A stretch of 64,000 nucleotides of DNA from Hypomesus transpacificus. Taxonomy: Eukaryota; Chordata; Actinopteri; Osmeriformes; Osmeridae. Below are positions 24,340 through 62,059 of this stretch, piece after piece. Where the stretch lies: positions 62,001 through 126,000 of the forward strand of contig NC_061066.1 of the NCBI RefSeq assembly GCF_021917145.1. Direction: 5' to 3'. The position numbers and the translations under genes were made by a program. Every line of letters starts with the position of its first letter. Position 1 is the first letter of the stretch. The notes under the pieces are model-generated. The model saw nothing but the letters and a program-made list of their open reading frames with translations, made no database searches and was not told the origin of the DNA.

Positions 24340-26187
24340 ACAGGAGGACCAGGCACTAAAGTTCTTGAGCCAGGAGGAGCAGGAGTGCATCCTATTCTTT
24401 GAGGAGACCATTGAATCACTGGAGGAGGAGTTTGAGGAGGGGGAAGCGCACAAGAGGCTAGAGGAGGCAGGTAGCCCCATGGACAGGTGTGATGGACCCC
24501 CCACTTTAGCATCCACCCCCAGGTCCCACCCCAGCAGCTTGCCCCCCTTCAGCCGCGACACCATGCATTCCAACCCCAAAGACCAGGACATTATAGACCT
24601 GGTCCGGCCAGAACCAGGGCCAGCCCAGGCCAAAGAGAAGATGTTCAACCCAGCTATGCCAGGTACACTAGTCTACCTCAATCTATAGATAATCCTCAGA
24701 AAAGGTATTGAACCACCCATTCTGGAATTTAGAGAACACATTTCTTTATGTTAACTTATCCATCTTTCTGCCTTCCAGATTTCCAGAGCATGGCTGTGAA
24801 TCCTCAGAGCCATATTGAGATGAAACCACGACGTGAGCCAATAGACAACTTCCCTGCAGAGTACAACCCTCCCCTGCCCAGCGGCAGCCAATTAGGGTCT
24901 GCAGATAACTATGGCCACTCCCAGTACCACCCTGTGGGCTCCATCCCCACCCCTGTCCTTATTGCTCAGAAGATCGCAGAGAATCAAGGAGGCGGAGCCA
25001 CTAATATTGACCCCTCCCTTCTCCGTCGTAGAAGTCTGGACTCCGAGAGAATGCCCACCTCTCTCGACCACCATGTCAAACATGGTCCGCCCACATCCGC
25101 CAAGCCCAGCCGCTTTCCTGGCAACATTAGTATGATAATGGGCAGCAAAGAGCACCATGGCCAATCACTGACCAGCGTGAACCTCCATGAGAGGAGGGCC
25201 CAGATGCTGGCTAACCTATCAGGGACAGCGCACCCTTTGGAGACGGAGCAGCACCATTTGACGTCCCAGCCGACTGCCCGCAATGTTCCCACTCGCAGTG
25301 TCTCTTTCAGGGACCCCACCCCAGATAAGTCCAGGATGGAGGCCCTGTCCAAGCTGGGCCTGACCCGAAACAGAGCTATGTCTGGGGACGGCAGCACTGA
25401 GGCCAGAACCAAAGTCCCTGTCCTCACCTCCACCCCTTCGCCTTCCCCAGCACCTGCAAACCCCTCGCCTCCTGCAACAGTCAGCTCTGAGCCAGTCCAC
25501 CATGAGCCCAAGTCTGCTTCCCCTCCATCTGAAATCATCTCGCTGGACTTTAACAGCTATGGCGGGAAAAGCATTGTGGTCCACCCTTCTACAGCCCCTA
25601 GGAGTGATGTTATTGTGTCCAACAGCCATGATACTAAGATCCAGCCTGCGGTGCTGGCCACACCTAGTGACTTCAACAGCTATGGTGGGAAGAGCAAGGT
25701 CATGACCCCTGGGCCTGAGGTCAGGAGTGACCTCCCAGATATCCTGAGTTCCCACAAAGCTGTGCTGGCCCCAGCCTCAGCCCCAACCCCAGCCTCAGCC
25801 CCAACCCCAGCCTCAGCCCCAGCCCTAGCCCCAGCCAAGCCAGAAGCCCTGCCTTATGAGCTCAACAGCTACGGTGGCAAGAGTAGAACCATGACCCCAT
25901 CCTCTGCAGCACACTCCACCCCAGATGTGTCCACACACTGTCCAGTGAAGACCTCCAGAGCTCCAGCCCCTTCCCCGGCCCCCAGGCCTACCCGCAGCCA
26001 AGCTCCCCCTAGCCCTCAGAGAAAGCTGTCACTTCCCGCCTCTCCAGAGCCCCGGAGGAGGTCCATCTCCAAGCCCCCCTCGTTCCGTTCCCAAGGGATC
26101 ACCGTGCAGTTCTCTGGACAAGGAGCGACGGATGAGTCACGCAGGGAAGCCCTCCGGAAACTAGGACTGCTGAAGGAAACGTTCTAA
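22865..26187 (+). CDS. proser2: Proline- and serine-rich protein 2
   Basis: Three coding exons: 22865-22996, 24344-24662, 24779-26187; joined they encode 619 residues, longer than the human protein (about 435). The start at 22865 is the first ATG of the exon (MPTSGTKSQP). Exon 2 encodes a conserved acidic helix, FFEETIESLEEEFEEG, followed by the IIDLVRPEPGP block. Exon 3 is largely disordered, rich in Pro, Ser and Ala, and ends with RREALRKLGLLKE, echoed earlier by RMEALSKLGLTRN. A block ending NSYGGKS occurs three times (DNA near 25546, 25669, 25858), and a PASAPT run covers 25767-25836. Position between echdc3 and upf2 matches mammalian PROSER2; the related gene SARG shares the acidic motif but not this neighbourhood. 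No biochemical function is established. Confidence 0.88.
24292..24325. repeat. Poly(C) run of 34 next to a splice acceptor
   Basis: Thirty-four consecutive C bases followed by (CA) repeats lead directly into the proser2 exon 2 acceptor at 24341-24343. The run supplies the polypyrimidine tract; its true length may be poorly determined. Confidence 0.9.
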
Positions 26188-38623: not shown

Positions 38624-40321
38624 TAAGACACTGACCCAACAGTGCCCACACACACACTAAGACACTGACCCAACAGTGCCTTATAGAAATGTTGTTACTT
38701 TGTCTATATGAAAGCCCTTACCCTCCTGTACAGTTTTATCCTGGGGGAGTTCTGGCATGTTCTCATCAAGCAGGTCCGCCAGTGACTGGGTATTTGCCAG
38801 AAGCTTCTGGTAGGAGGTAGCAAACTCTTCATATTGCTTGTGTCTGTCCTCACTCAGCTCTCCTTTGGAGTGGAGAATACGTCTGGAGGAGAGACACACA
38901 GAGGTCGTCCCAGTCAGTGCGTGGAGAGACACATTCGGAAAAACATCTCATTTTGCTCCCCTCACCTGTTCTGCCGCTCGATGTTCTGGAGCTCCCGGTG
39001 GTCCTTCTTCAGGTGCTTGGTAAGCGAGGTGAAGTACTCCCTCAGAAGATTCTGGAAAGGTTGCTGCTTCTCCGTGTTGATGATCTCACTGGGAGGGAAA
39101 GCCAGACCAAATTTCTCTGCTGCCAGCTTCATCTTGCGAGGTACCAGGCCAGCGATGTCATCCCCGCAGTGCTTACAAAAGCTGATGACCACTGACACAT
39201 GTGTGTGCGTCTCCCGGTCTGTTCCGATTATATTCTTCAGCTGCTCGTAGATGAGAGATAGGCCCTCTTTGTCGGTGAAGAGGCCCACAATGGTGAGCTC
39301 AGCGATGAACCGGAGGTCTGTGCGCAGCTTGCTCACGTTGGGGGCCTTCTCCTCTTTACGGGCCTCAAAGTGCTTCTTCCAGGCCTGCAGAAGCAGTGGG
39401 GCGAACTCTGCATAGCGCTGTGGAAGAGAGAGCACAGGTGCACAGCACAGCCCACATCCGAGATCTTCAACTTGGCCTCCACCACAGAACTCACAGCCTC
39501 GCCGATGTACTTGCTGAGGTTGAGTGAGCCAAAGTCGTTGGAGAGAGAGTCCCGCTGTTGCTCGGTGAGGGTGCGCAGCTTCTTGACGAAGGCTGTGTTC
39601 TTTTTCAGGCTGGAGTCCAGCCGGCTGAAAAAGGACTCTTCAGGTCGACCCTCGTGAACATTCTGGTTCTTACTGCGCAGCTCCTTCCTGGACTGGTGAC
39701 TTTTCCAGGCCTCCTGATGCAGCTGGTGGCTCTCCTCTTTCTCCCTGTGCGGGGAAGAAAGTCATAGCATGAAGGTTTATTCACAGGGTTCTGCTATTGT
39801 GAGGTGTTGCGTGTATCATAAAAATTAACCACAATTGATCTATGCATGTTTGTGAACATCAGCTAAACTTTCTCTCACACTAGTGAACTCTGTGTAGGAT
39901 CTCGAGTTAGCAGGAGCTAGTAGTGAACTCTGCGTATGATCTCTTACTTGAGTTGTGCAGCCTCCTCTTCTCGTTGCTTTCGGGCTTCTTCCTCCTGAAG
40001 CTTCCTCTCCTCTTCTTCCTGCTGCTGTTTTTCTTCTTCCTCTTTCTTCTTTTGCTCTTCTTCTGCCTTGAGTTTCTCCTCCTCTTTCTTTTTCCGCTCC
40101 TTCTCCTCTTTCTTTTTCTTTTCTTCTTCCAACCGCCTCCTCTTCTCTTCAACAGCTTTACTGCTGTCCTTCTTACCACTCATTTTGGTCTCATCTTTTG
40201 ATTTATCCCGGGAAGAAGGAGGCCGCCTTTCACCTTCTCTCTCTTTTTCTTTCTCCTTATTAGTGAATGAGCAAACTTCTTTCTCATCCATGTTTACCGA
40301 TCGCTTGCGTTCAGCAGGCAT
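30910..40321 (-). CDS. upf2: Regulator of nonsense transcripts 2 (UPF2)
   Basis: Scaffold of nonsense-mediated mRNA decay, bridging UPF1 and UPF3 in the cytoplasm. Twenty-one coding exons in order: 39948-40321, 38966-39744, 38722-38882, 38357-38548, 38118-38258, 37615-37718, 37430-37515, 37199-37307, 36965-37078, 36756-36872, 36061-36246, 35660-35863, 35058-35333, 34751-34934, 33288-33439, 33023-33127, 32838-32936, 32559-32729, 31395-31536, 31108-31228, 30910-30925. About 1,277 residues (human 1,272). Order: a Lys/Glu-rich charged N-terminus, three MIF4G domains (exons 2-3, 6-11, 11-14), an acidic stretch (exons 15-16, EEEEENTDYLTD), and the UPF1-binding C-terminus (MRMKKLTLDINERQEQEDYQ). Exon 6 uses a GC donor. 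One base appears missing near 39420 in exon 2. The tiny last exon (ending RRLEK) is less certain. Confidence 0.95.
31525..31820 (-). repeat. 42-bp tandem repeat that copies a upf2 splice acceptor
   Basis: Seven copies of a 42-bp unit, plus a partial eighth. Each unit (minus strand) holds a pyrimidine tract, CTCCTGCAG or CTCCTGCTG, then the start of upf2 exon 19 (TATAAGATCTTGAACGT). The copy nearest the exon is the real acceptor (exon from 31536). Four copies keep CAG and three carry CTG. The unit is 14 codons with no stop. Confidence 0.93.
32764..32789. repeat. Poly(G) run of 26 in a 108-bp upf2 intron
   Basis: On the transcribed strand this is a 26-base poly(C) inside the short intron 32730-32837, upstream of the exon 18 acceptor. 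Confidence 0.9.
35456..35680 (-). repeat. 58-bp tandem repeat that copies a upf2 splice donor
   Basis: Four copies at exact 58-bp spacing (TTGTTTTCCCC at 35461, 35519, 35577, 35635). Each includes, on the minus strand, GGGCATGGAG followed by GTAGG: the last bases of upf2 exon 12 plus its 5' splice site. The copy bordering the exon (donor at 35659-35658) is the real one. Confidence 0.92.
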
Positions 40322-46785: not shown

Positions 46786-48618
46786 TCATGCAGTGGAGAC
46801 TGTGGAGGTTTCAGTCTTGGAAGAAACCTCAGATGACTCATCAATCTTCTTCCCAAACACTGTCTCCATGATACACGCATTGAACTGAGAAAAAGAGACA
46901 ACATTGATTATTCTAATGGTGGTTCCGTTAACAGTCAGATTGACAGATGAATTGATTGATGGATATATTCACCTGTTTGTTCATGAATGCGTAGATGAGA
47001 GGGTTGTAGACACAGGAGCTCTTAGAGAACATTGCTGGGATGGTGACCAAGCGGTAGTCTTTGTCCTCGTTGGTTGAGAATGCAAAGTACAAGCCTGCTA
47101 TGGCATAGGGGGCATAGCACACTACAAAGGAGCCCACCATCACAATGACCATCCTGGAGACTTCCTTCTCAGCCTTCTGAGTGGAGGCTGATTCAGCCTG
47201 CTGAGCTGCCACCTACAGAAACACGTGACAAAACCAACACTGTGCATCATGAAGAAGAATAGGTAGTTCAAAGCCTGCAAAGTGATTGGCTAAAATCCCC
47301 AATTTGCACCTTTTCAAATGTTCACACTGACAGTTTGTTTTTGTACTAGAACAAACACATTGGATTTGCACGGTAACCTTAATAAATAGTTTAATGACAT
47401 TTCGGTTTAATTAAAACTAGTTTCATGTCATGTCCTCGCACCAGTATGATAATATCATTAATGCAATATTGTATGTGAGTAATTTCACTTACAGCTCGCA
47501 GTGCACCCAGAAGTTGTGAATAAGACACGATAATGATGGATAGGGGCATCATGAAGCAGGTCACGATCAGGAAGTAGGTGTAGCTTGTGCAGTGGTACTC
47601 TTCATTGTGAGTGTACCAGTCAGGTCCACAGGCGCAACCCAGACCTTCAGGAATGAACCTGGAAAACCAAGACTGGTTGACTCATGCTGGGAGTGGGGAG
47701 GGGGGGGATTGTTGAAATGTTCAATTGATACACCAAACTCTTCAAACTTAAACAGTTTGGAAAGGATCACATCTACAACAAGAAAGACATGTTAAGCCGG
47801 GTTATTATACTAACAGTTCAACAACAATTATTTAAAAAAGGTTTCAAAAGTTGTTCTAGACAATCTTATTATACCATATATCTGAGCCTGATTTAAAACT
47901 TTAAAATATATCCAGGTGTAATTTCTGGAAATGTAATGATTTAATTGTGTATGGAATGGTTCCAAACTGTGGTACAATGATATAATCAGATTCTTAGTTA
48001 CCTGCTCCAGCCATAGAGTGGTGGGGTGGAACATCCAACTCCCATGAACCAGGTGAAGCCCACTGCTATCCCAGCCTGGGTGCTCCCAAACTTGAACTGG
48101 CCAAAGGGTTTACAGATGACCACGTATCTCTCAAAGGCAAGGACAGCCAGCGACCAACCTGTCACCAACCCTAAGAAGGACAGACATATTTAGAAACATC
48201 AGGAAACAAATTAAAAGCATAAACAAGATTTCAAAATCAAATGTTTGATAATATAGCTGGATCTACAGTGCATTTTACCTGCTATTGATCCCATACATGC
48301 TTCTAATGCACATAATGTAGGGCCCAGGAAATAGTATCCTTTTAGACTTGCGACAAACACTTGACTCACAGAAAACGTAGCAAAAATAAAGCCTGCGAAC
48401 GAGATGTTGACCAGAATGTAATTCAGAGGCTGCCTTAGTTTCTTGTATTTCGCTGTCACTAATAGAATAACAAAGTTTAAAGGTGTTCCAGCAAAGAACA
48501 CAAAGCCCATGAACGCAGCCTGCAGATAGAAAGCCCACACCGGAGCCAAATAGTACTGTGGTCCTTCAAAGGGGTCGATCTTGGAGATGTTCTCATACAA
48601 ATGGAAGTGCTTCCCCAT
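46786..48618 (-). CDS. opn1sw1: SWS1 cone opsin, copy A (UV-type)
   Basis: Visual pigment G-protein-coupled receptor of UV/violet cones. Five exons: 48279-48618, 48002-48170, 47493-47658, 46973-47212, 46786-46884 (340, 169, 166, 240, 99 bases), total 337 residues, the standard SWS1 plan. Diagnostic residues: Glu113 counter-ion in CALEA, Cys110 and the ECL2 Cys ([10 protein letters not shown]), ERY at the end of helix 3, retinal-binding Lys in [13 protein letters not shown], and a Ser/Thr-rich tail ending VSTA. The start [13 protein letters not shown] carries an N-glycosylation site (NIS). Using bovine rhodopsin numbering, Phe46, Phe49, Thr52, Phe86, Ala114 and Ser118 match UV-sensitive pigments, with Gln at 93. 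Tail-to-tail with calumenin and in tandem with copies B and C. Confidence 0.96.
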
Positions 48619-48675
48619 CTTAACTCTTTGTCTCCACAGAGTGTCCGTCTGAGAGTGCCATGTCTGGGAAGATCC

Positions 48676-48683
48676 TTTTTATA
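48676..48683 (-). promoter_or_regulatory. TATA box of opsin A
   Basis: TATAAAAA on the minus strand, 58 bp upstream of the ATG. A similar box lies at nearly the same distance in copies B, C and relic D. Further upstream, GGATTAAGG (near 48771) contains a TAATCC-type OTX/CRX site on the minus strand, expected for photoreceptor genes. Confidence 0.75.
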
Positions 48684-49198
48684 AGATCATAAACCAATTA
48701 CATATGCTAAAGATCAAGCCTCCGGAGCCTCCGGAGACGATTTTCTTGATCTGGATGAGAGTAAATCGGAGGATTAAGGTGCACATTCCTCCACCACGTG
48801 TAATCCGCATTTAGAGGAGCCATGAGGGAAGAGCAGAGTAAAAAAAAGTTTCACTTTTTGTATGATGAAGGAGGTATATTGTATCTAGGTACAATATACG
48901 TTCTGCTAATTGGGGAGATACAGAATATGAAGAGGGGGAGCAGACAAGATCGGTTTGGGAAAGATTACCAAATCTGAATCTTAAACAGAATAGCGTTTGA
49001 TCGGCAAGTAAGAGGTCACAAACAAGGAATTTACTTTGGTGGGCAGGTGCATACAGTAAACATAATAAACAAGATAAAATGTTGAAAATGTACAACAAAA
49101 TACTGGCAGAGCTAAACAATATAAAATACTATAAAATAATATAGAATAAAATAATATAGAATACAAATAAAATATTATAGAATAAAAGATAATACTGA

Positions 49199-49877: not shown

Positions 49878-50513
49878 TTTAGGGCTGATGGTCTTACCAT
49901 TGACCAGTCCAATTCCTGCCTAATCTTACAGGGACTTACACTTGTTTTAACGTCATACCACATGGCAGGCTGAGGACATTAGGTGGTCATCATTACTGAC
50001 TCTTCACATAGTAACAGGGTTTGTTTAATACATGTATTGTGTTATTGTCTTATCTGGGATTCAGTTTGGACAGAGGTGGTGGTCATCATGGACAGCATCT
50101 CTCCTGACACCCTGGGCAGGGTACAGAGCACTGCAGCTACAACCTTCATGTGTGGCTGGCCTTGACTGAGTTGTTCCGAAGGTTGTTACCGGTTTGCTAT
50201 TCAACGCATCCGGTGGAAGAAATTGAATTTCCTATGTGCTCATGTTAATCACTATCAGATATTCATTTATCATCTGTTCAATATTCGTATTATTATTAAT
50301 TATTAATAAGATTATTACTTAGTCTTATTATCCATTCACGTGTGTGTTCCTACTGTAATGTACTGTGTTCTGATGACAGTCACAGTTCTATGATGTAGTA
50401 TCCACCTGCCTATGATAAGAAACAGCTATGGGCTGTGTGTTATCTTTATTTTCCATCATTCACTATAATCACCGTCCTCTGAAATTCAGAGCTAAGAGAG
50501 ACTTGATTGGGGA

Positions 50514-50706
50514 GTCAGATGGCTGAGCGGTGAGGGAGTCGGGCTAGTAATCAGAAGGTTGCTGGATCGATTCCCCGCCGTGCCAGATGACGTTGTGTGC
50601 TTGGGCAAGGCACTTCACCCTACTTGCCTCGGGGGGAATGTCCCTGCACTTACTGTAAGTCGCTCTGGATAAGAGCGTCTGCTAAATGTAAATGTAATGT
50701 AATGAT
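50514..50706 (+). mobile_element. tRNA-derived SINE
   Basis: The head GTCAGATGGCTGAGCGG holds a Pol III A box, and GGATCGATTCCCCG a B box, as in tRNA-Leu/Ser-like genes. A body follows (GGCAAGGCACTTCACCCTAC), then the tail CGCTCTGGATAAGAGCGTCT and ATGTAA repeats. Two other copies lie in this window. Confidence 0.88.
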
Positions 50707-50860
50707 TGAGACCTAAGATGGGTGTTGTGTTGTAATTTAGGTCTTGTTTTCTCTCCAATTCGGCAGATTGATAATAATCCAGAACTCAACTGGATTTAGT
50801 CAGTCCGTTAATGAATAGTCGGACAAAAACTTTCCTCATCCATCCCATGACTGTCTTGAC

Positions 50861-51965
50861 ACCATGGACTCAAATCTGTTATCTACTGTGGACACTTAAC
50901 AGATACCATGGACTCAAATCTGTTATCTACTGTGGACACTTAACAGATACCATGGACTCAAATCTGTTATCTACTGTGGACACTCTACAGATACCATGGA
51001 CTCAAATCTGTTATCTACTGTGGACACTCTACAGATACCATGGACTCAAATCTGTTATCTACTGTGGACACTTTACAGATACCATGGACTCAAATCTGTT
51101 ATCTACTGTGGACACTCTACAGATACCATGGACTCAAATCTGTTATCTACTGTGGACACTTAACAGATACTATGGACTCAAATCTGTTATCTACTGTGGA
51201 CACTTAACAGATACCATGGACTCAAATCTGTTATCTACTGTGGACACTTAACAGATACCATGGACTCAAATCTGTTATCTACTGTGGACACTCTACAGAT
51301 ACCATGGACTCAAATCTGTTATCTACTGTGGACACTCTACAGATACCATGGACTCAAATCTGTTATCTACTGTGGACACTCTACAGATACCATGGACTCA
51401 AATCTGTTATCTACTGTGGACACTCTACAGATACCATGGACTCAAATCTGTTATCTACTGTGGACACTCTACAGATACCATGGACTCAAATCTGTTATCT
51501 ACTGTGGACACTCTACAGATACCATGGACTCAAATCTGTTATCTACTGTGGACACTCTACAGATACCATGGACTCAAATCTGTTATCTACTGTGGACACT
51601 CTACAGATACCATGGACTCAAATCTGTTATCTACTGTGGACACTCTACAGATACCATGGACTCAAATCTGTTATCTACTGTGGACACTTTACAGATACCA
51701 TGGACTCAAATCTGTTATCTACTGTGGACACTCTACAGATACCATGGACTCAAATCTGTTATCTACTGTGGACACTCTACAGATACCATGGACTCAAATC
51801 TGTTATCTACTGTGGACACTTTACAGATACCATGGACTCAAATCTGTTATCTACTGTGGACACTTTACAGATACCATGGACTCAAATCTGTTATCTACAG
51901 TGGACACTTTACAGATACCATGGACTCAAATCTGTTATCTACTGTGGACACTTTACAGATACCAT
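50861..51965. repeat. 44-bp minisatellite, about 25 copies
   Basis: Highly uniform 44-bp units containing ATACCATGGACTCAAATCTG; variation is mostly at one spot (CACTCTACAG, CACTTAACAG or CACTTTACAG). Because 44 is not a multiple of three and the unit has no stop on the plus strand in any frame, long artefact frames run through all three plus frames. It lies between opsin A (5' side) and opsin B (3' side). Confidence 0.96.
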
Positions 51966-52971: not shown

Positions 52972-54867
52972 TTATGCAGTGGAGACTGTGGAGGTTTCAG
53001 TCTTGGAGGACACCTCAGATGTCTCCTCCATCTTCTTCCCAAATACTGTCTCCATGATGCACGCATTGAACTGAGGGGGGTGGAAATACACGCGTTATGT
53101 GCATGTGTGTCGGTGCATGCAATCATAAGTGCAAATGTGTGTGTATGTCTGTGACAGTAATACATACCTGTTTGTTCATGAAGGCATAGATTAGAGGATT
53201 ATATACACAGGAACTCTTCGTAAAGAATGCTGGGATGGTGACCATGCGATAATCTTTGTTTTTATCATCCGCAATGCCAAACCACATTGCTGTAATAGCA
53301 TAGGGGGCATAGCACACTACAAAGGAGCCCACCATCACAATGACCATCCTGGAGACTTCCTTCTCAGCCTTCTGAGTGGAGGCTGATTCAGCCTGCTGAG
53401 CTGCCACCTACAGAAACACGTGACAAAACCAACACTGTGCATCATTACGAAGAATAGATTGTTCAGAGCCTGCAAAAGGATTGCATTTGACTGCAATTTA
53501 CAGTCAATCATCAGATTTAGACTAGCGACCCATATTCCCCACTTGCACAAAAGTTAAATAAAGGAAAATGCTAAAGGTATTGAAAATTTATTTAAGACTT
53601 GTATCTTCTGATATTGGATACACTACAGGGAAACCAAATGATTAAGCTACCCTACAACATAATGTCTTTAAAAATACAATTATAAAAAATAGTTTCTGTC
53701 CACAGTATGTTATCAAAGTAATACTAATAAATAGTTACATCTCATTTTAGTTTAATTTAAATCAATGTCATGTCATCACACCAGTATGGTAGTATCATAC
53801 ATGGATAGTGATTGTACTTACAGCTCGCAGTGCACCCAGAAGTTGGGCGTAAGAGAAGATAATGATGGTCATGGGCATTATGAAGCAGGTCACAATCAGG
53901 AAGTAGGTGTAGCTTGTGCAGTGGTACTCTTCATTGTGAGTGTACCAGTCAGGTCCACAGGAGCAACCCAGACCCTCAGGAATGAACCTGGAAAACCAAA
54001 AGGTACAACTTATAGAAATTGACACACACCGCATAGTTCAGGACTTGCTATTGAAAATAATTTGTGTAAATAAGTGTTATCATTATAAAGATAGTCAGTT
54101 GTATGGTTTATGGCTATCATCATAGCTCTTGTACACCCTGGACTACACCTACACCACAGTTCAACTGAATTACATCCTAAATGTATCCAGACTAAGGTAC
54201 AAAGTCAGATGGCAAATTAAGCTTGGTTACCTGCTCCAGCCAAAGAATGGTGGGGTGGAACATGCAATTCCCATGAACCAGGTGAAGGCCACAGCTGCCC
54301 CAGCCTGGCTGCTCCCAAACTTGAACTGGCCTAAAGGTTTGCAGATGACCACATATCTCTCCAAGGCAAGGACAGCCAAGGACCATCCTGTCACCAATCC
54401 TGATGAAAAGGAAGTTTTAAAACACAAAATAAAGAAATAACAGATGTTCACATGAACGTTGATTTCATGGTCCTTAGAATAATCTTAGCAGTAAATAATA
54501 ATAAAAAATAATAAAAAAAGGTTTTACCTGCTACAGATCCAATCCATGTTTCTACACCACAAGCAAAAGGGCCCTGGAAAAAGTATCCTCTGCAACTGGC
54601 AATGAACACTTGAAACACTGAGAATATCAAGGCTAAGAAGCCAGCAAAAGAAATATTGACCAGGATGTAGTTCAAGGGCTGCCTCAGTTTCTTGTATTTC
54701 ACTGTCACAAGTAGAACAACGAAGTTTAGAGGTGTTCCAACAAAGAAGACAGTGCCCATGAAGGCAGCTTGCAGATAGAAAGCCCATAAAGGTGCCAAGT
54801 AGTACTGTGGCCCCTCGAAAGGGCTGATGTTGGAGATGTTCTCATACAAGTGGAAGTACTTCCCCAT
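52972..54867 (-). CDS. opn1sw1: SWS1 cone opsin, copy B (altered tuning sites)
   Basis: Five exons: 54528-54867, 54231-54399, 53822-53987, 53168-53407, 52972-53070, with the same sizes and phases as copy A; 337 residues. All functional landmarks are intact: Glu113 (GVETW), Cys110, [12 protein letters not shown], and Lys in [13 protein letters not shown]. It differs from copy A at known tuning positions (bovine numbering): Thr46 in MGTVFF, Ala86 in AGFLALIFS, Thr114 in VETWIG; Phe49, Thr52 and Ser118 are kept. Exons 1 and 5 are closest to copy C, whereas the start of exon 4 and adjoining intron 3 are identical to copy A. Expected role: short-wave cone pigment, probably longer-wave than a UV pigment. 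Whether it is expressed in the same cones as A cannot be told. Confidence 0.95.
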
Positions 54868-54933
54868 CTTGAATCCTCCTGTCTGACAAGACTCTCTGAC
54901 TAAGACGGTGTGTTTTTGAATCTAGAGAGGATG

Positions 54934-54941
54934 TTTTTATA
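54934..54941 (-). promoter_or_regulatory. TATA box of opsin B
   Basis: TATAAAAA on the minus strand 67 bp upstream of the ATG, within GTGACAGTATAAAAACATCC, which is also present upstream of copy C. Confidence 0.75.
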
Positions 54942-56498
54942 CTGTCACTTACCAATTACCACTAAAACGGTGACCAACAAGATTAACGTGTCCAATTTCC
55001 TAGACAATGGATAAAGGCTCACCCTTCAGTTTAGCACCATGACGCAAGCACTTGCAATCTGTCCCACTGTGTAATCTCATTCTTTGTAATTAGTGAATTG
55101 GTGATTTTCAAAACTATGGATGTTTTCATTTGAGCTTATGCGGTAGGCATATAAGATTTGTTGGTATTATTGCATATATACTATTCTTAAACACATCCAT
55201 GTCTTGGATGGATGAAAACTGAGAAAAGTTGTAAATGTAGAAGGGAGTTCACATTCCATGTGAATGACTCTGTGTAAACAATCTTTTGGCTTCTTTTATT
55301 AGGAATTAACTGTCTTACCCATGAACCAATTACAAACTAAAATAATTAGTCAATCTTGTTATAAAAGGACCTTGACATTAAGGTGCACCTGCTGGTGTAG
55401 TATTAGGGGGGGGGGGGGGGGGGGGGGGGGTGAGTGAAAGTAGGTGGGGCAGTGTTTGGCTGCAAATCCAGATTTCAATCTCCTTGGGTATGGTTCCACC
55501 AAAATGCAGACCTGGACAGATTCTACAATTCCTCGTTGCAGATTATCTATAATAAAATATCAGGACGCCTGGTTGAATTTTGTATTTATGTTGTCAATCA
55601 TCAGTTTGGAATATGTTTAAATTAAATTCTATATAGAAGGAAAATCCACACATGGACAAAGTGCAATTAAGCTATTTATTCCGGTTAAATATTATACAAT
55701 ACATTCCATGGAACGCTTTTGGTACAATGTTACCTATGATACGGCTGACAGAAATCCATTTTAAATTTGAACATTGGATGATATGATCAGTCATGTCATG
55801 CATTACGTCATTTGTTTTTTCATGTCATGCATACAGCAAAGTTGCCTTGGAAACATGACCTGCCATTTCCATCAAGCGTTCAAAGCTTAGCAGTCACAGG
55901 GTTAGGGGACTCACATACAGATGTATGACTTCAAGATGGGACTGGGACTGGGTATGTTGACCTGGTTTAGGCTGGGTATCATATGGTTTTCAGCCTGTAA
56001 AAAAAAACTGTATTTTTGAAGATATATCTAACACAAGGTTTTAGCATAAGGTGAAGATAAGTTGTTTAAAATAAGATGTTTTCACAACATTCTGAGGTCC
56101 TGGAGGATGGTTTAAATTAGTATTTAATTTACATGCAGAGAAAGTCAGTTGTACACCTGCTGAACCTTTTAGAAACATAAAATAACTGTTCTTTGTTCTT
56201 TCTTTGGGACTGCTTATTACTAGTAAAAATGCTATCAAAACTAAATTTTTCTATTATGTTTCTTCTTTATTTTGCTTTGCACATTTGCAATACAGACACT
56301 GCTGTAAAAGTAACTGAGAAAACCAGGCAATATTATCCCCCTGATTATAGCATTTCTGGTCAAATAATAGGTATTTACAAGGATATGCAGTACTCTTCAT
56401 ACCTATCCAACAAAAGGTATGTAGAAGAAGTATATGATGGGGATGAGCATGTGTGCTGCCTGCTCAAACTAAGTACACAGCAACTCAGCTGGCAGGCC
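54942..56498. other. Opsin B upstream region and opsin C downstream region
   Basis: A block with ACCAATTACA (near 55323) and ATTAAGGTGCAC (near 55378) resembles the proximal promoter of copy A and, more loosely, a block near 58880-58995 upstream of copy C. A 25-base poly(G) run lies at 55406-55430. The remainder up to 56498 is AT-rich, with no gene seen. Confidence 0.5.
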
Positions 56499-58459
56499 TT
56501 ATGCAGTGGAGACTGTGGAGGTTTCAGTCTTAGAGGACACCTCAGATGTCTCCTCCATCTTCTTCCCAAATACTGTCTCCATGATGCAAGCGTTAAACTG
56601 AGGAGTGGAGGAACGGAGGCACCGTTATAGAACATGTATATGTGTGTGTGTGTGTTTGTGTGTGTATATGTGTGTGTTTGAGTGTGCGCACCTGCACATG
56701 CATACAAGAGTGCATGTGTGTGTTTGTGTGTGTGTGTGCATGCCAGTCCTTCCTACCTGTTTGTTCATGAAAGCATAGATGAGGGGATTGTACACACAGG
56801 AGCTCTTAGTAAAGAATGCTGGGATGGTGACCAAGCGGTAGTCTTTGTCCTCGCTGGTTGAGAGTGCAAAGTACAGGGCTGCTAGGGCATAGGGGCAGTA
56901 GCACACTATAAAGGAGCCCACCATCACAATAATCATCCTGGAGACTTCTTTCTCAGCCTTCTGAGTGGAGGCTGATTCAGCCTGCTGAGCTGCCACCTAC
57001 AGAAACACATGACAAAGCAGAGTCTCTCTCAAACAGTACGGCTTGAGCGCTTGATTATACGACTTCATCATTATTCTGCAACTGTTATTCCTTCATTTAG
57101 ATTTTCATACAAATCACATTTTAGTTAAAAGTCAAACCTTTTTATGTCATTTCATCACACCAGTTCGATAATGCAAAATATTCAATAGTGTTTTTTATGG
57201 ATGTATTAAAGCGTTGAACTTACAGCTCGCAGTGCACCCAGAAGTTGGCCATAAGAGAAGACAATAACGGTAATGGGCATGACAAAGCAGGTCACCATCA
57301 GGAACCAGGTGTAGCTTGTGCAGTGGAACTCTTCATTATGAGTGTACCAGTCAGGTCCACAGGAGCAACCCAGACCCTCAGGAATGAACCTGGAAAACCA
57401 AAGAACAACAATGTACATATTGACATATGCATTGACATATTGAGAGGTGTACAGTTTTGAGAACTTGACACCACCTCCATCGCATTTTTCAGAATGTGTG
57501 ATCACAGTTGTTATCTGAACAATATCCTGAACAAGATCAACTGTGTGGTTACCATTACCCAGCTCTTGTGGTGCAGCAAATGGTCATATTCTAAGGTACA
57601 AGGGGGTCAGATGGCTGAGCGGTTAGGGAATCGGGCTACCAATCAGAAGGTTGCCATTCGATTCCCGGCCATGCCAAATGACGTTGTGTCTTTGGGGAAG
57701 GCACTTCACTCTACTTGCCTCGGGGGAATGTCCCTGTACTTACTGTAAGTCGCTCTGGATAACAGCGTCTGCTAAATGCCTAAATGTAAAATGTAAATGT
57801 AAGTCAGATGGCAAATCAAGCTTAGTTACCTGCTCCAGCCAAAGAATGGTGGGGAGGAACACCCCAGGCCCATGAACCAGGTGAAGGCCACCGCTGCCGT
57901 AGCCTGGCTGCTCCCAAACTTGAACTGGCCAAAGGGTTTACAGATGACCACATATCTCTCAAAGGCAAGGACAGCCAAGGACCATCCTGTCACCAATCCT
58001 GATGAAAAGGAATTGAAGAAACAGAAAGTAATAACAGAAATTCACATACATTTAGATCTAATGATCCTGAGATTTGTGCATTTGATACGAAAGTTATTCT
58101 CATTGTATACTCTTTTTACCTGCTACGGATCCCATCCATGTTTCTAAAGAACAGGCCATGTGGCCCATAAAAAAGTATCCTTTGCAACTGGCAAGGAACA
58201 CTTGAAACACTGAGATTAACAAGGCCAAGAAGCCAGCAAAAGAAATATTGACCAGGATGTAGTTCAAGGGCTGCCTCAGTTTCTTGTATTTCACTGTCAC
58301 CAGTAGAACAACGAAGTTTAGAGGTGTTCCAACAAAGAAGACAGTGCCCATGAAGGCAGCTTGCAGATAGAAAACCCACACAGGTGCCAAGTGGTACTGT
58401 GGCCCCTCAAAAGGGCTGATCTTGGAGATGTTCTCATACAAATAGAAAACCTTCCCCAT
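56499..58459 (-). CDS. opn1sw1: SWS1 cone opsin, copy C (altered tuning sites)
   Basis: Five exons: 58120-58459, 57830-57998, 57224-57389, 56757-56996, 56499-56597; 337 residues with intact frame. Landmarks: Glu113 in [17 protein letters not shown], and Lys in [13 protein letters not shown]. Tuning positions match copy B: Thr46, Ala86 (AGFLALLIS), Thr114, with Phe49, Thr52 and Ser118 kept. The N-terminus [13 protein letters not shown] differs from B. Exon 4 is distinct from A and B in its second half ([18 protein letters not shown]). Intron 2 carries a SINE absent from copies A and B. The start is the first ATG, placed 65 bp downstream of a TATA box as in the paralogues. Confidence 0.95.
57602..57803 (+). 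mobile_element. tRNA-derived SINE in intron 2 of opsin C
   Basis: Same family as the copy at 50.5 kb: head GTCAGATGGCTGAGCGGTTA, B box in ATTCGATTCCCGG, tail CGCTCTGGATAACAGCGTCT, then ATGTAA repeats. It is antisense to the opsin. The equivalent intron of copy B reads straight through (GGTACAAAGTCAGATGGC), giving an empty site. Confidence 0.9.
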
Positions 58460-58523
58460 CTTGAGTCCTCCTGTCTGACAAGACCCTCTGATTGAGATGT
58501 TGTGTGTGAATCTGGAGAGGATG

Positions 58524-58531
58524 TTTTTATA
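58524..58531 (-). promoter_or_regulatory. TATA box of opsin C
   Basis: TATAAAAA on the minus strand 65 bp upstream of the ATG, in the same sequence setting as copy B. Confidence 0.75.
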
Positions 58532-59339
58532 CTGTCACAAAACTATCACAAACTACAAGATCAATTACCCTAATGGTTTACATTTCCTAAAAGTAATCGG
58601 CTTAAGATACATCTGACATGGTGGTGCCCTGACAACCAGCCAAACTCTACCCTGTTCGTTCCATTTAGTCAGAATGAGTGATTCATGAAGAGGACATTTG
58701 GTTAATATTTGACTATGCAGTAGGCATTGAGGTTGTATTGATATTTCACATATCTTGGTCTTGTATATCAGTATGGTGAATTAATAATAAATTGTGAAAG
58801 TAAGCAAGTCTATACACCATGGAATTGCCTCAGCATTACCTCAATTATTTAACTGACGTAGTGTTTTGGGGACGGTCATTAGCTGTCTTACCCCTGTTGT
58901 AAAGGAATTACAAATTAATCTAATTGGATTTATTAGATCGTATTTGAAATAAACTAAAGTTAAGGTGTTTTCTGCTCCTCTAGTTAGGGGAGAAAATGTA
59001 ATACTTTGTGTCTAAAAGATTTACATGACTAGACAGTCATGCTTTGTAGAAGCTCTTTGGCAGCCAGTACATTATTGTATCATTTGCGACATGCTTCTAC
59101 CTGCATTGTACATGTTTCCCTATTATTCCTTGCAGGTTTTATTAAATCAGAATAAATAGAAAACAAGTGTGCCTGTCGACTGATTTTCTCTTGGGGTTGT
59201 GAGCTTTAGGTTGTCATGCTTTAAGGTGAATCTTTGCCTCAGTCGGAAGTTCTGTGCACTCTGTAGATTTTCTAAGAGGATATCTCCATATTTTTGGTTT
59301 ATCCTTCCATTATTCCCCTCAGTCTTCTAAACCCGGCTG
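58532..59339. other. Opsin C upstream DNA
   Basis: About 500 bp of it resembles the opsin B upstream region (shared CTGTCTTACCC, AATTACAAA and TTAAGGTG motifs), so the duplication that made B and C included flanking DNA. No gene is seen. Confidence 0.5.
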
Positions 59340-60045: not shown

Positions 60046-60109
60046 AGTACCTGTGTTACATCTTGGTCAGGGTATTTAAAGGTATCTGGGTCTAGTGACT
60101 TTTGTGTTT

Positions 60110-61640
60110 TTGACAGGGAAAACACAGACCCTGTCCTGCCCCCCCTACTCCCAACGGACTCCTCCCCGGTCCTGAGCACACATGAGGTGAGATGTGTCTT
60201 CCGCAGAATTAACATTAGGAAAGCACCTGGACCAGACGGAGTGCTGGGCCGGGTGCTAAGAGACGTCTTTTCCGGCATATGTAACATGTGGCTGGCTACA
60301 TCATGGGTCCCAGCCTGCTTCAAGGCCGCTATAATAGTCCCCATCCCCAAACAGTCTAAGGTCACATGTCTAAATGACTACAGACCTGTGGCACTCACCT
60401 CCATTCCTGCAAAATGCTTAGAGACTAGTCATCAAAGATTTTAAAGCAGCTATCTCAACCATCACTTGATCCATATCAATTTGCATTCAGGGAGAACAGA
60501 TCAACTGAGGATGCCATTGCCATTGTGCTCCACACACTACTGGAGCACCTGGAGCAGAAGAACACCTCTGCACGGCTCGTCTTTGTGGACTACTGTTTGG
60601 CTTTTAACACCTTCCGGCCATTCAAACTCCGGCCCAAGTTAAATAATCTTGGATTAGACACCATACTGTGCAACTGAATTGCTGACTTTTTAACTAATGG
60701 CACGCAGAGGGTCAGAGTGGAAAAGAACACCTTCTCCACCCTTTTCATTATCACCTGGGCCCCCCACGGGTGTTTGCTGAGCCCCCTGCTCTATACTTTG
60801 TAGACGCATTACTGCCTTGCCTCTTCCTCCTTCAATCTCATTGTCAAATTTGCCGACGACACCACAGTGCTCAGTCTCATTAACAACAACAATGAGACTG
60901 CCGACAGGGATGAGGTGCAACACCTGGCGTCATGGTGCCACTGCAATAACCTGGTGTCGAACATCAACAAGACCAAGGAGATCATTATAGATTTCCGCAC
61001 ATGCGGAAAAAATAACCATCCGACACTCTCTATTGGCGCAGACGAGGTAGAGAGGGTGCCCAACTTTAAGTTCCTTGGGGTGACTATGACTGAAAACCTG
61101 TCCTGGGGTACTCACACTGCCTTAGCTGTGGGAAAAGCCCAACAACGCCTCTACTATCTGAGGAAACTGAGGAGCGCCAACATCCCGAAACCACTGATGG
61201 CAAACTTTTACAACTGTGCCATCAGCAGTGTGTTAACCTATGGTTTCTTAGTGTGGTTTTCCAGCTGCACTAAGGCTGAACAGCAGGCACTCCAACGGGG
61301 GGGAAAAAACTGCGGCGACAATCATTAGGACGACTCTCCCCGAGATCAGTACCATCTACGCCACCCGCTGTCTGAGGAGAGTGCACAACATCCTGTGGGA
61401 CCGTCCCCACCCAGCTCACCATCTGTTCCTCCTGCTGCCCTCAGGTAGAAGGTACAGGTCCATATGGGCCAGAACATCAAGACAGACCAACAATCTGTAT
61501 CCACAGGCTGTGAGGCTTCTGAACAGTGCCCCCCCCCCCCTCCCCCCTTTCTGCCTCCCTCTCATGGACAGTAACCACACCCACCAATTACAATAACAAT
61601 AAACTGAACTGAGCATTGTTGCACAAATAACAAAATGGCC
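60110..61640 (+). mobile_element. Degenerate non-LTR retrotransposon (reverse transcriptase relic)
   Basis: Conceptual reading shows reverse transcriptase motifs in order: KAPGPDGVLGRVL, IVPIPKQ, NDYRPVALTS, then FADDTTVLSL (the catalytic Y/F-ADD box) and NKTKEIIIDFR, followed by FKFLGVTMTENLSW and a thumb-like region. At least two in-frame stops (near 60675 and 60800) and frameshifts near 60440 and 61310 break it. The end is close to CAATAACAATAAACTGAAC. Motifs suggest a fish LINE of the L2/Rex1 type; the endonuclease half is missing, so it is 5'-truncated. It is antisense to the opsins. Confidence 0.88.
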
Positions 61641-61830: not shown

Positions 61831-61993
61831 TCAGAGAGACTTGTTAGCACTCATAACCAGAATAAGCCCAGTAGCCAGTACAACAAAACCCATAATGACA
61901 GCTTCCATGTAGAAGACCAATAACCAAGTGTTGGTATTGCTCAAATCGATCCACCTTAGAGATGTTCTCCTACAGCTGGAATAACTTCCCCAT
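61831..61993 (-). pseudogene. SWS1 opsin exon 1 relic (copy D)
   Basis: The minus strand from 61993 reads MGKLFQL, stop, ENISKVDRFE, matching the opsin N-terminus [13 protein letters not shown] and following residues. A TAG replaces the Tyr8 codon. After a frameshift, a second stretch VFYMEAVIMGFVVLATG matches helix 1 ([17 protein letters not shown]). The relic then ends in a stop, and exons 2-5 are not found between here and copy C. It marks a fourth SWS1 gene that decayed; the LINE relic occupies part of where its other exons would be. Confidence 0.88.
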
Positions 61994-62059
61994 CTTCTCT
62001 CCTGTCTGTCAGCTCTGCTACTCTCGACTGAAAACCAAATGATGTTACAGTGGCTACTG

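Follow-up and report, generated by a model that had tools for sequence, protein, structure and literature searches.

The 64,000-nucleotide stretch of Hypomesus transpacificus DNA analysed here (the window; bases 62001-126000 of contig C7 in a 437-Mb assembly of 376 contigs) carries on its minus strand three intact five-exon opsin genes of the SWS1 type, designated A, B and C, of which B and C differ from A at sites that tune known SWS1 pigments. Copy A lies at 46786..48618 (exons 48279-48618, 48002-48170, 47493-47658, 46973-47212 and 46786-46884), copy B at 52972..54867 (exons 54528-54867, 54231-54399, 53822-53987, 53168-53407 and 52972-53070) and copy C at 56499..58459 (exons 58120-58459, 57830-57998, 57224-57389, 56757-56996 and 56499-56597). 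When spliced from the window each gene encodes 337 amino acids, with GT-AG borders at all four introns and a terminal stop codon, and a 7tm_1 domain was identified in all three by Pfam.

The best match of the B protein in PDB was human SWS1 (E 1.1e-145, 488 bits), against 334 bits for rhodopsin and 284 bits for MWS, the green cone pigment; protein identity to B, the copy with which this search was run, is 83% for A and 87% for C. Residues are given in bovine numbering (protein index + 7), as B residues 15-336 align to residues 22-347 of rhodopsin chain 1f88. In this numbering the retinal lysine K296, the counterion E113 and the pair C110-C187 land at their expected positions, and all are kept in A, B and C. 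By their closest solved relative, their domain and key residues and their exon structure, the three genes are vertebrate SWS1 cone opsins. Assignment of B and C to SWS2 was considered and rejected: of two zebrafish sequences not taken from database records, SWS2 is only 35-56% identical to the exons of B and C, and SWS1 agrees with B at 255 and with C at 249 of 336 sites. Coding DNA differs by 10-15% between the copies, and in each of the three pairs synonymous sites have changed proportionally more than nonsynonymous ones (Fisher P 2.9e-16, 5.7e-15 and, for B-C, 6.1e-8). Given this excess, the open frames and the key residues, the copies do not look like decaying genes.

The codons of the spliced genes, their places computed from the exon coordinates, separate B and C from A at the tuning sites. 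At site 46, B (54751..54753) and C (58343-58345) encode Thr by ACT, and A (48502-48504) encodes Phe by TTT. At site 86, Ala is encoded by GCC in B (54631..54633) and C (58223-58225), against Phe by TTT in A (48382-48384); at site 114, Thr is encoded by ACA in B (54547..54549) and C (58139-58141), against Ala by GCA in A (48298-48300). B and C are therefore identical in codon at all three sites, and differ from A by two bases at site 46, three at site 86 and one at site 114. Site 295 is Thr in B (ACG, 53219..53221) and in C (ACT, 56808-56810) and Ser in A (TCT, 47024-47026), so that A has the combination F46, F86, A114 and S295 of a UV (ultraviolet) type pigment. A preliminary description of this region had reported these residues for A, B and C at sites 46, 86 and 114, and the codons agree with it; the coordinates that it gave span B and C, and A falls outside them. 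It did not mention S295T or C115W, nor the gene-conversion pattern, the missing SWS2 and the fourth, relic copy described below.

Overall, B and C agree with one another and differ from A at 29 of 337 sites, and the changes beyond sites 46, 86 and 114 include I85L, A87L, S92F, L109A, C115W and S295T. Phe86, whose loss is one mark of violet-sensitive SWS1, is lost from both B and C. Three of the six sites in the Schiff-base hydrogen-bond network are altered in both copies (86, 114 and 295). When the changes shared by B and C were compared with the whole protein as background, they were enriched both at the network sites (3/6, hypergeometric P 0.0097) and at sites distinguishing UV from violet pigments (4/13, P 0.018).

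Divergence among the copies was uneven along the gene. In exon 1, which carries tuning sites 46, 86 and 114, the synonymous distance (dS) is 0.83 for A-B, 0.86 for A-C and 0.15 for B-C, and in exons 2 and 3 it is 0.15-0.25 across all three pairs. The block most diverged from A lies at 54529..54687 on the minus strand (codons 61-113 of B, bovine sites 68-120, transmembrane helix (TM) 2 to TM3), where the proportion of synonymous differences (pS) of B is 0.61 to A and 0.14 to C, and that of A-C is 0.67; in codons 114-225 pS is 0.16-0.20. The difference in pS between exon 1 and the rest of the gene was matched in 4 (A-B), 1 (A-C) and 9617 (B-C) of 10000 codon shuffles. The start of B exon 4 (53298..53407, minus strand) is identical to its A counterpart (47103-47212) and forms part of an identical coding run of 134 nucleotides, a length reached in none of 10000 shuffles. 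This identity extends into the end of intron 3, with 100 of 100 aligned columns the same across the border of intron 3 and exon 4 (A 47148-47247). At the end of exon 4 the pattern is reversed, as B is distant (pS 0.75 to A and 0.64 to C) and A-C is closer (0.26).

Gene conversion among old paralogues is, we infer, the best explanation of this mosaic; the later exons appear to have been partly homogenised in this way, the tuning block not. Conversion would have mixed parts of exons 2-5 among A, B and C while the tuning exon was kept apart, and selection probably removes those conversions that would erase a spectral difference. SWS2 as the donor of the B/C block was set aside by eye, by comparison with the zebrafish SWS2 sequence. 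As a rough yardstick, synonymous distances of 0.95 between pike and Hypomesus and of 0.13-0.15 among three smelts are reported in PMC12083275.

The remaining visual opsins, among the best candidates scored in the assembly and in the fetched regions, were given, from their hallmarks, the class names that we take to apply to them. Contig C18 holds one intronless RH1 gene and one intron-bearing rod-type gene. RH2-type genes comprise three in tandem on C9 (6184876-6194560) with Gln122 and one on C22 (7032229-7034343) with Glu122, and three LWS-type genes with very similar exons stand in tandem at C9:7652692-7665334. The kelch gene after the LWS array, for which kelch relatives were found, is presumably HCFC1. 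No SWS2-like sequence was present among 119 scored matches in the assembly to the zebrafish SWS2 query; the best of them was RH1, with 50% identity, and none exceeded 59%. By tblastn on the fetched loci (nine opsin or LWS-flank regions and two regions beyond the window) identity to SWS2 reached at most 62.5%, for one RH2 exon, and the gap-free 8356 bases that separate the HCFC1-like gene from the LWS array (C9:7665335-7673690) gave no SWS2 match (best E 0.44). The ancestral gene order is HCFC1-SWS2-LWS (Lin 2017, PMC5686071), and the same source reports that SWS2 was lost in 6 of 59 species, naming two catfishes and the electric eel as having lost SWS1 too. The E122Q change in fish RH2 causes a blue shift of ~20 nm (Lin 2017, PMC5686071), and the three Q122 RH2 genes are probably blue-shifted.

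UV-sensitive SWS1 pigments have an unprotonated Schiff base, whose state is controlled by the hydrogen-bond network, made up of sites 86, 90, 113, 114, 118 and 295 with two waters (Yokoyama 2016, PMC4802639). Human SWS1 became violet through F46T/F49L/T52F/F86L/T93P/A114G/S118T (PMC4802639); three of these seven sites are altered in B and C, with the same residue at site 46 only. On ancestral UV backgrounds the shift produced at site 86 was 0 nm for F86L, 2 nm for F86M, 14-17 nm for F86S, 19 nm for deletion of F86 and 48 nm for F86Y (PMC4802639), and goldfish F86V gave +1 nm (cited in PMC8294118). The preliminary description had named loss of F86 as the classic route from UV to violet; F86 is indeed lost here, but given such small single-change shifts its loss alone is no sure route. 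Its remark that Ala at 86 is uncommon was well founded, as F86 is reported for every SWS1-bearing fish among 59 genomes apart from the spotted gar, with A86, for which the authors propose violet sensitivity and call the effect of F86A unknown (Lin 2017, PMC5686071). This report of F86 in all but the gar is in conflict with PMC8294118, in which the examined teleosts are said to carry Val at 86.

Beyond copy C, a fourth SWS1 exon 1 survives as a relic (61873..61996, minus strand), in which codon 8 is a stop and site 46 is Phe; it was matched to A by tblastn (E 3e-5) and to A, B and C by blastn (best E 1e-9). The relic at 61.9 kb apart, no further SWS1 copy was found among 120 scored matches, the best candidates of the assembly search, and the 20 kb beyond the window gave none at E 1e-4. 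Between C and the relic, at 60100-61600, remains of a reverse-transcriptase-like element were seen by eye, with a Pfam match to ALKBH8_N, a model often matched by such elements. Twenty-five copies of a 44-bp unit (1.1 kb) lie between A and B at 50861-51965, and two similar insertions of transfer-RNA-derived appearance, resembling short interspersed elements, were seen by eye at 50510-50710 and, within intron 2 of C, at 57605-57810. The expected neighbours of SWS1 are TNPO3 on one side and calumenin on the other. An EF-hand gene at about 44.1-45.0 kb, ending in HDEF, resembles calumenin and is a candidate for this neighbour; the one open reading frame of it that was scanned had no Pfam match. 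Elsewhere in the window, open frames at 24733-26187 (plus strand) and 38965-39639 (minus strand) matched SARG (E 2e-11) and MIF4G (E 1.6e-8) respectively.

The upstream flanks of the three SWS1 genes align poorly. In the 100-column window adjoining the 5' end of the genes identity is 0.50 for A-B, 0.46 for A-C and 0.71 for B-C; further out it is lower, and across the twelve outermost windows it is 0.29-0.62. Exact copies of the motif that we took as CRX-type for the upstream scan occur at -188 and -158 of A, and none occurs within 500 bp of B or C. TATAAA is present at -65 to -74 upstream of all three copies (flanks 48619-49118, 54868-55367 and 58460-58959, minus strand).

We consider it reasonably probable that A is a UV pigment and that B and C are old, maintained SWS1 paralogues which have shifted toward violet and, with the Q122 RH2 genes, partly replace SWS2. 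B and C would descend from one old duplicate with a rebuilt retinal pocket (F46T, F86A, A114T and S295T, with I85L, A87L, S92F, L109A and C115W). Site 114 gains a hydroxyl, the hydroxyl residue at site 295 is replaced by another that is bulkier, and site 86 loses its ring; these changes to the network most likely stabilise a protonated Schiff base and would move absorption from ~360 nm into the violet, by our own estimate to roughly 390-430 nm. As no SWS2 was found, B and C together with the three Q122 RH2 genes would cover the band normally served by that class. The spectral shift of B and C, with its direction and size, their expression in cones and their replacement of SWS2 are what we infer from sequence. 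The preliminary description had suggested that the array may supply two spectral classes from one opsin family; this is the best-supported reading, and the failure to find SWS2 strengthens it, with the shift itself predicted from the residues.

Several observations weigh against this proposal. Single changes of F86 often shift UV pigments by only 0-17 nm in the published series above, and owing to this small effect a shift in B and C is likely rather than certain. Furthermore, F49, T52, S90, Q93 and S118 are the same in B and C as in A. When residues 46-118 were taken as the background, the enrichment at tuning sites was gone (network sites 2/5, P 0.21; UV/violet sites 4/13, P 0.17), as this whole region has diverged and the tuning sites are not singled out within it. 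In exon 1 alone the ratio of nonsynonymous to synonymous distance (dN/dS) for B-C is 0.55, which is not significantly below 1 (P 0.16), and several other fishes that have an SWS1 pair express a single member of it or none (PMC11019301). With regard to conversion, A and C also share an identical run of 71 bases in the same stretch of exon 4 (reached in 16 of 10000 shuffles); the A-B tract lies in a conserved stretch, and conservation therefore contributes to its identity. The SWS2 result is limited by a query not taken from a database record and by assembly-wide searches that score the best candidates only, and absence from an assembly does not prove absence from the animal.

The main rival explanation, which is less likely and still carries appreciable weight, is that B and C remain UV pigments, their substitutions compensating one another so that the Schiff base remains unprotonated, the difference between the copies lying in expression, stability or kinetics and not in wavelength. 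Strong epistasis in UV SWS1, seen in the slight effects of F86L, F86M, F86S and goldfish F86V (sources as above), fits this explanation, as do the unaltered residues S90, S118, F49 and T52. The divergence of the A upstream region from those of B and C, with CRX-type motifs in A only, likewise fits a regulatory difference. Compensation of this kind would have to accommodate joint changes at site 46 and at three network sites out of six, kept in both copies, and an exon 1 that stays apart while much of the remaining gene is close. It is rather improbable that B and C are instead little-used duplicates under weak constraint, in which the changes at 46, 86 and 114 represent drift in an old paralogue missed by gene conversion. 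The exon 1 dN/dS of B-C, the fish SWS1 pairs of which only one copy is expressed (PMC11019301) and the fourth copy, already a relic, fit such drift, but in each of the three copies the reading frame is open and the splice sites are intact, whole-gene nonsynonymous change between B and C is well below synonymous change (P 6e-8), and E113, C110/C187 and K296 are conserved. Tandem arrays between A and B, including the 1.1 kb of 44-bp repeat, are places where an assembly could have set alleles or misjoined copies in tandem; with copies 10-15% apart in coding DNA, flanks as dissimilar as those described and a single run of N in the whole window, at 835-934, such an artefact is highly improbable.

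The age of the B/C lineage was assessed from trees whose zebrafish SWS1 row was not taken from a database record, a circumstance that counts against a deep origin. In the tree built from exon 1 protein sequences, A clusters with zebrafish and B/C fall outside (Shimodaira-Hasegawa-like approximate likelihood ratio test 95, bootstrap 71). For exon 1 the tree A+(B,C) was rejected by the approximately unbiased (AU) test (p 0.036) and not by the Shimodaira-Hasegawa (SH) test (0.228), ((A,B),C) was just unrejected (AU 0.054), the SH test rejected no tree, and a tree with B/C joined to human was equally good (AU 0.56). For codons 61-113 the AU values were 0.020 for A+(B,C) and 0.003 for ((A,B),C); for exons 2-3 these two trees were the best. 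When 18 tuning and neighbouring sites were removed from exon 1, A+(B,C) was unrejected (AU 0.086) and ((A,B),C) was the best of four trees, so convergence explains the exon 1 tree equally well. A deep origin of B/C, which had AU support with all exon 1 sites only and lost it without the tuning sites, was therefore set aside as a finding and kept as a case of low probability. In that unlikely case the B/C tuning exon would belong to an ancient lineage of SWS1, separated from that of A before the zebrafish-euteleost split, perhaps the lineage of gar A86, and would survive mainly as a TM2-TM3 block kept by selection, the rest having been converted toward A, and would have assumed the function of the lost SWS2. 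Teleosts would then have a second, hidden class of short-wave opsin.

Fish usually reach the violet-blue range with SWS2, and SWS1 stays ultraviolet. This genome appears reversed, with SWS2 not found, SWS1 tripled and two of the copies apparently rebuilt at the chromophore. It would thus offer a natural test of three questions: the effect of F86A, the rebuilding of a lost opsin class from another, and the shielding of one exon from gene conversion by selection. A literature search, judged by title and the start of the abstract, returned no description of this array or of SWS2 loss in smelts. Nor did that search show the combination of F86A, A114T and S295T in two intact SWS1 copies out of three with a tuning exon seemingly resistant to conversion and with no SWS2 found. 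The three intact copies exceed the number of SWS1 genes given for teleosts in PMC9627706, 'one, at best two'.

Retuning of SWS1 through pocket residues after duplication is of a known kind. In another smelt, the ayu (Plecoglossus altivelis), SWS1 is duplicated, as it is here (PMC1664589, PMC2696081). The anemonefish SWS1 alpha and beta genes are likewise duplicates with differing estimated maxima, but unlike the pigments proposed here both are UV (estimates 356-360 and 367-370 nm; PMC11019301). The scabbardfish (Lepidopus fitchi) resembles B and C in having a fish SWS1 without F86 (Tada 2009, reported in PMC4802639); there, however, F86 is deleted rather than replaced, the pigment was measured as violet at 423 nm, and no paired UV copy is described in the available part of PMC4802639. 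Human violet SWS1 (414 nm) shares T46, L85, F92, C99, F103 and V119 with B and C and not with A, and is changed from the UV state at sites 46, 86 and 114; it differs in having L86 and G114 and in being changed also at 49, 52, 93 and 118. The spotted gar (Lepisosteus oculatus) has kept SWS2, which was not found here; like B and C, its SWS1 carries Ala at site 86, and it too has undergone a tandem SWS1 duplication (PMC5686071).

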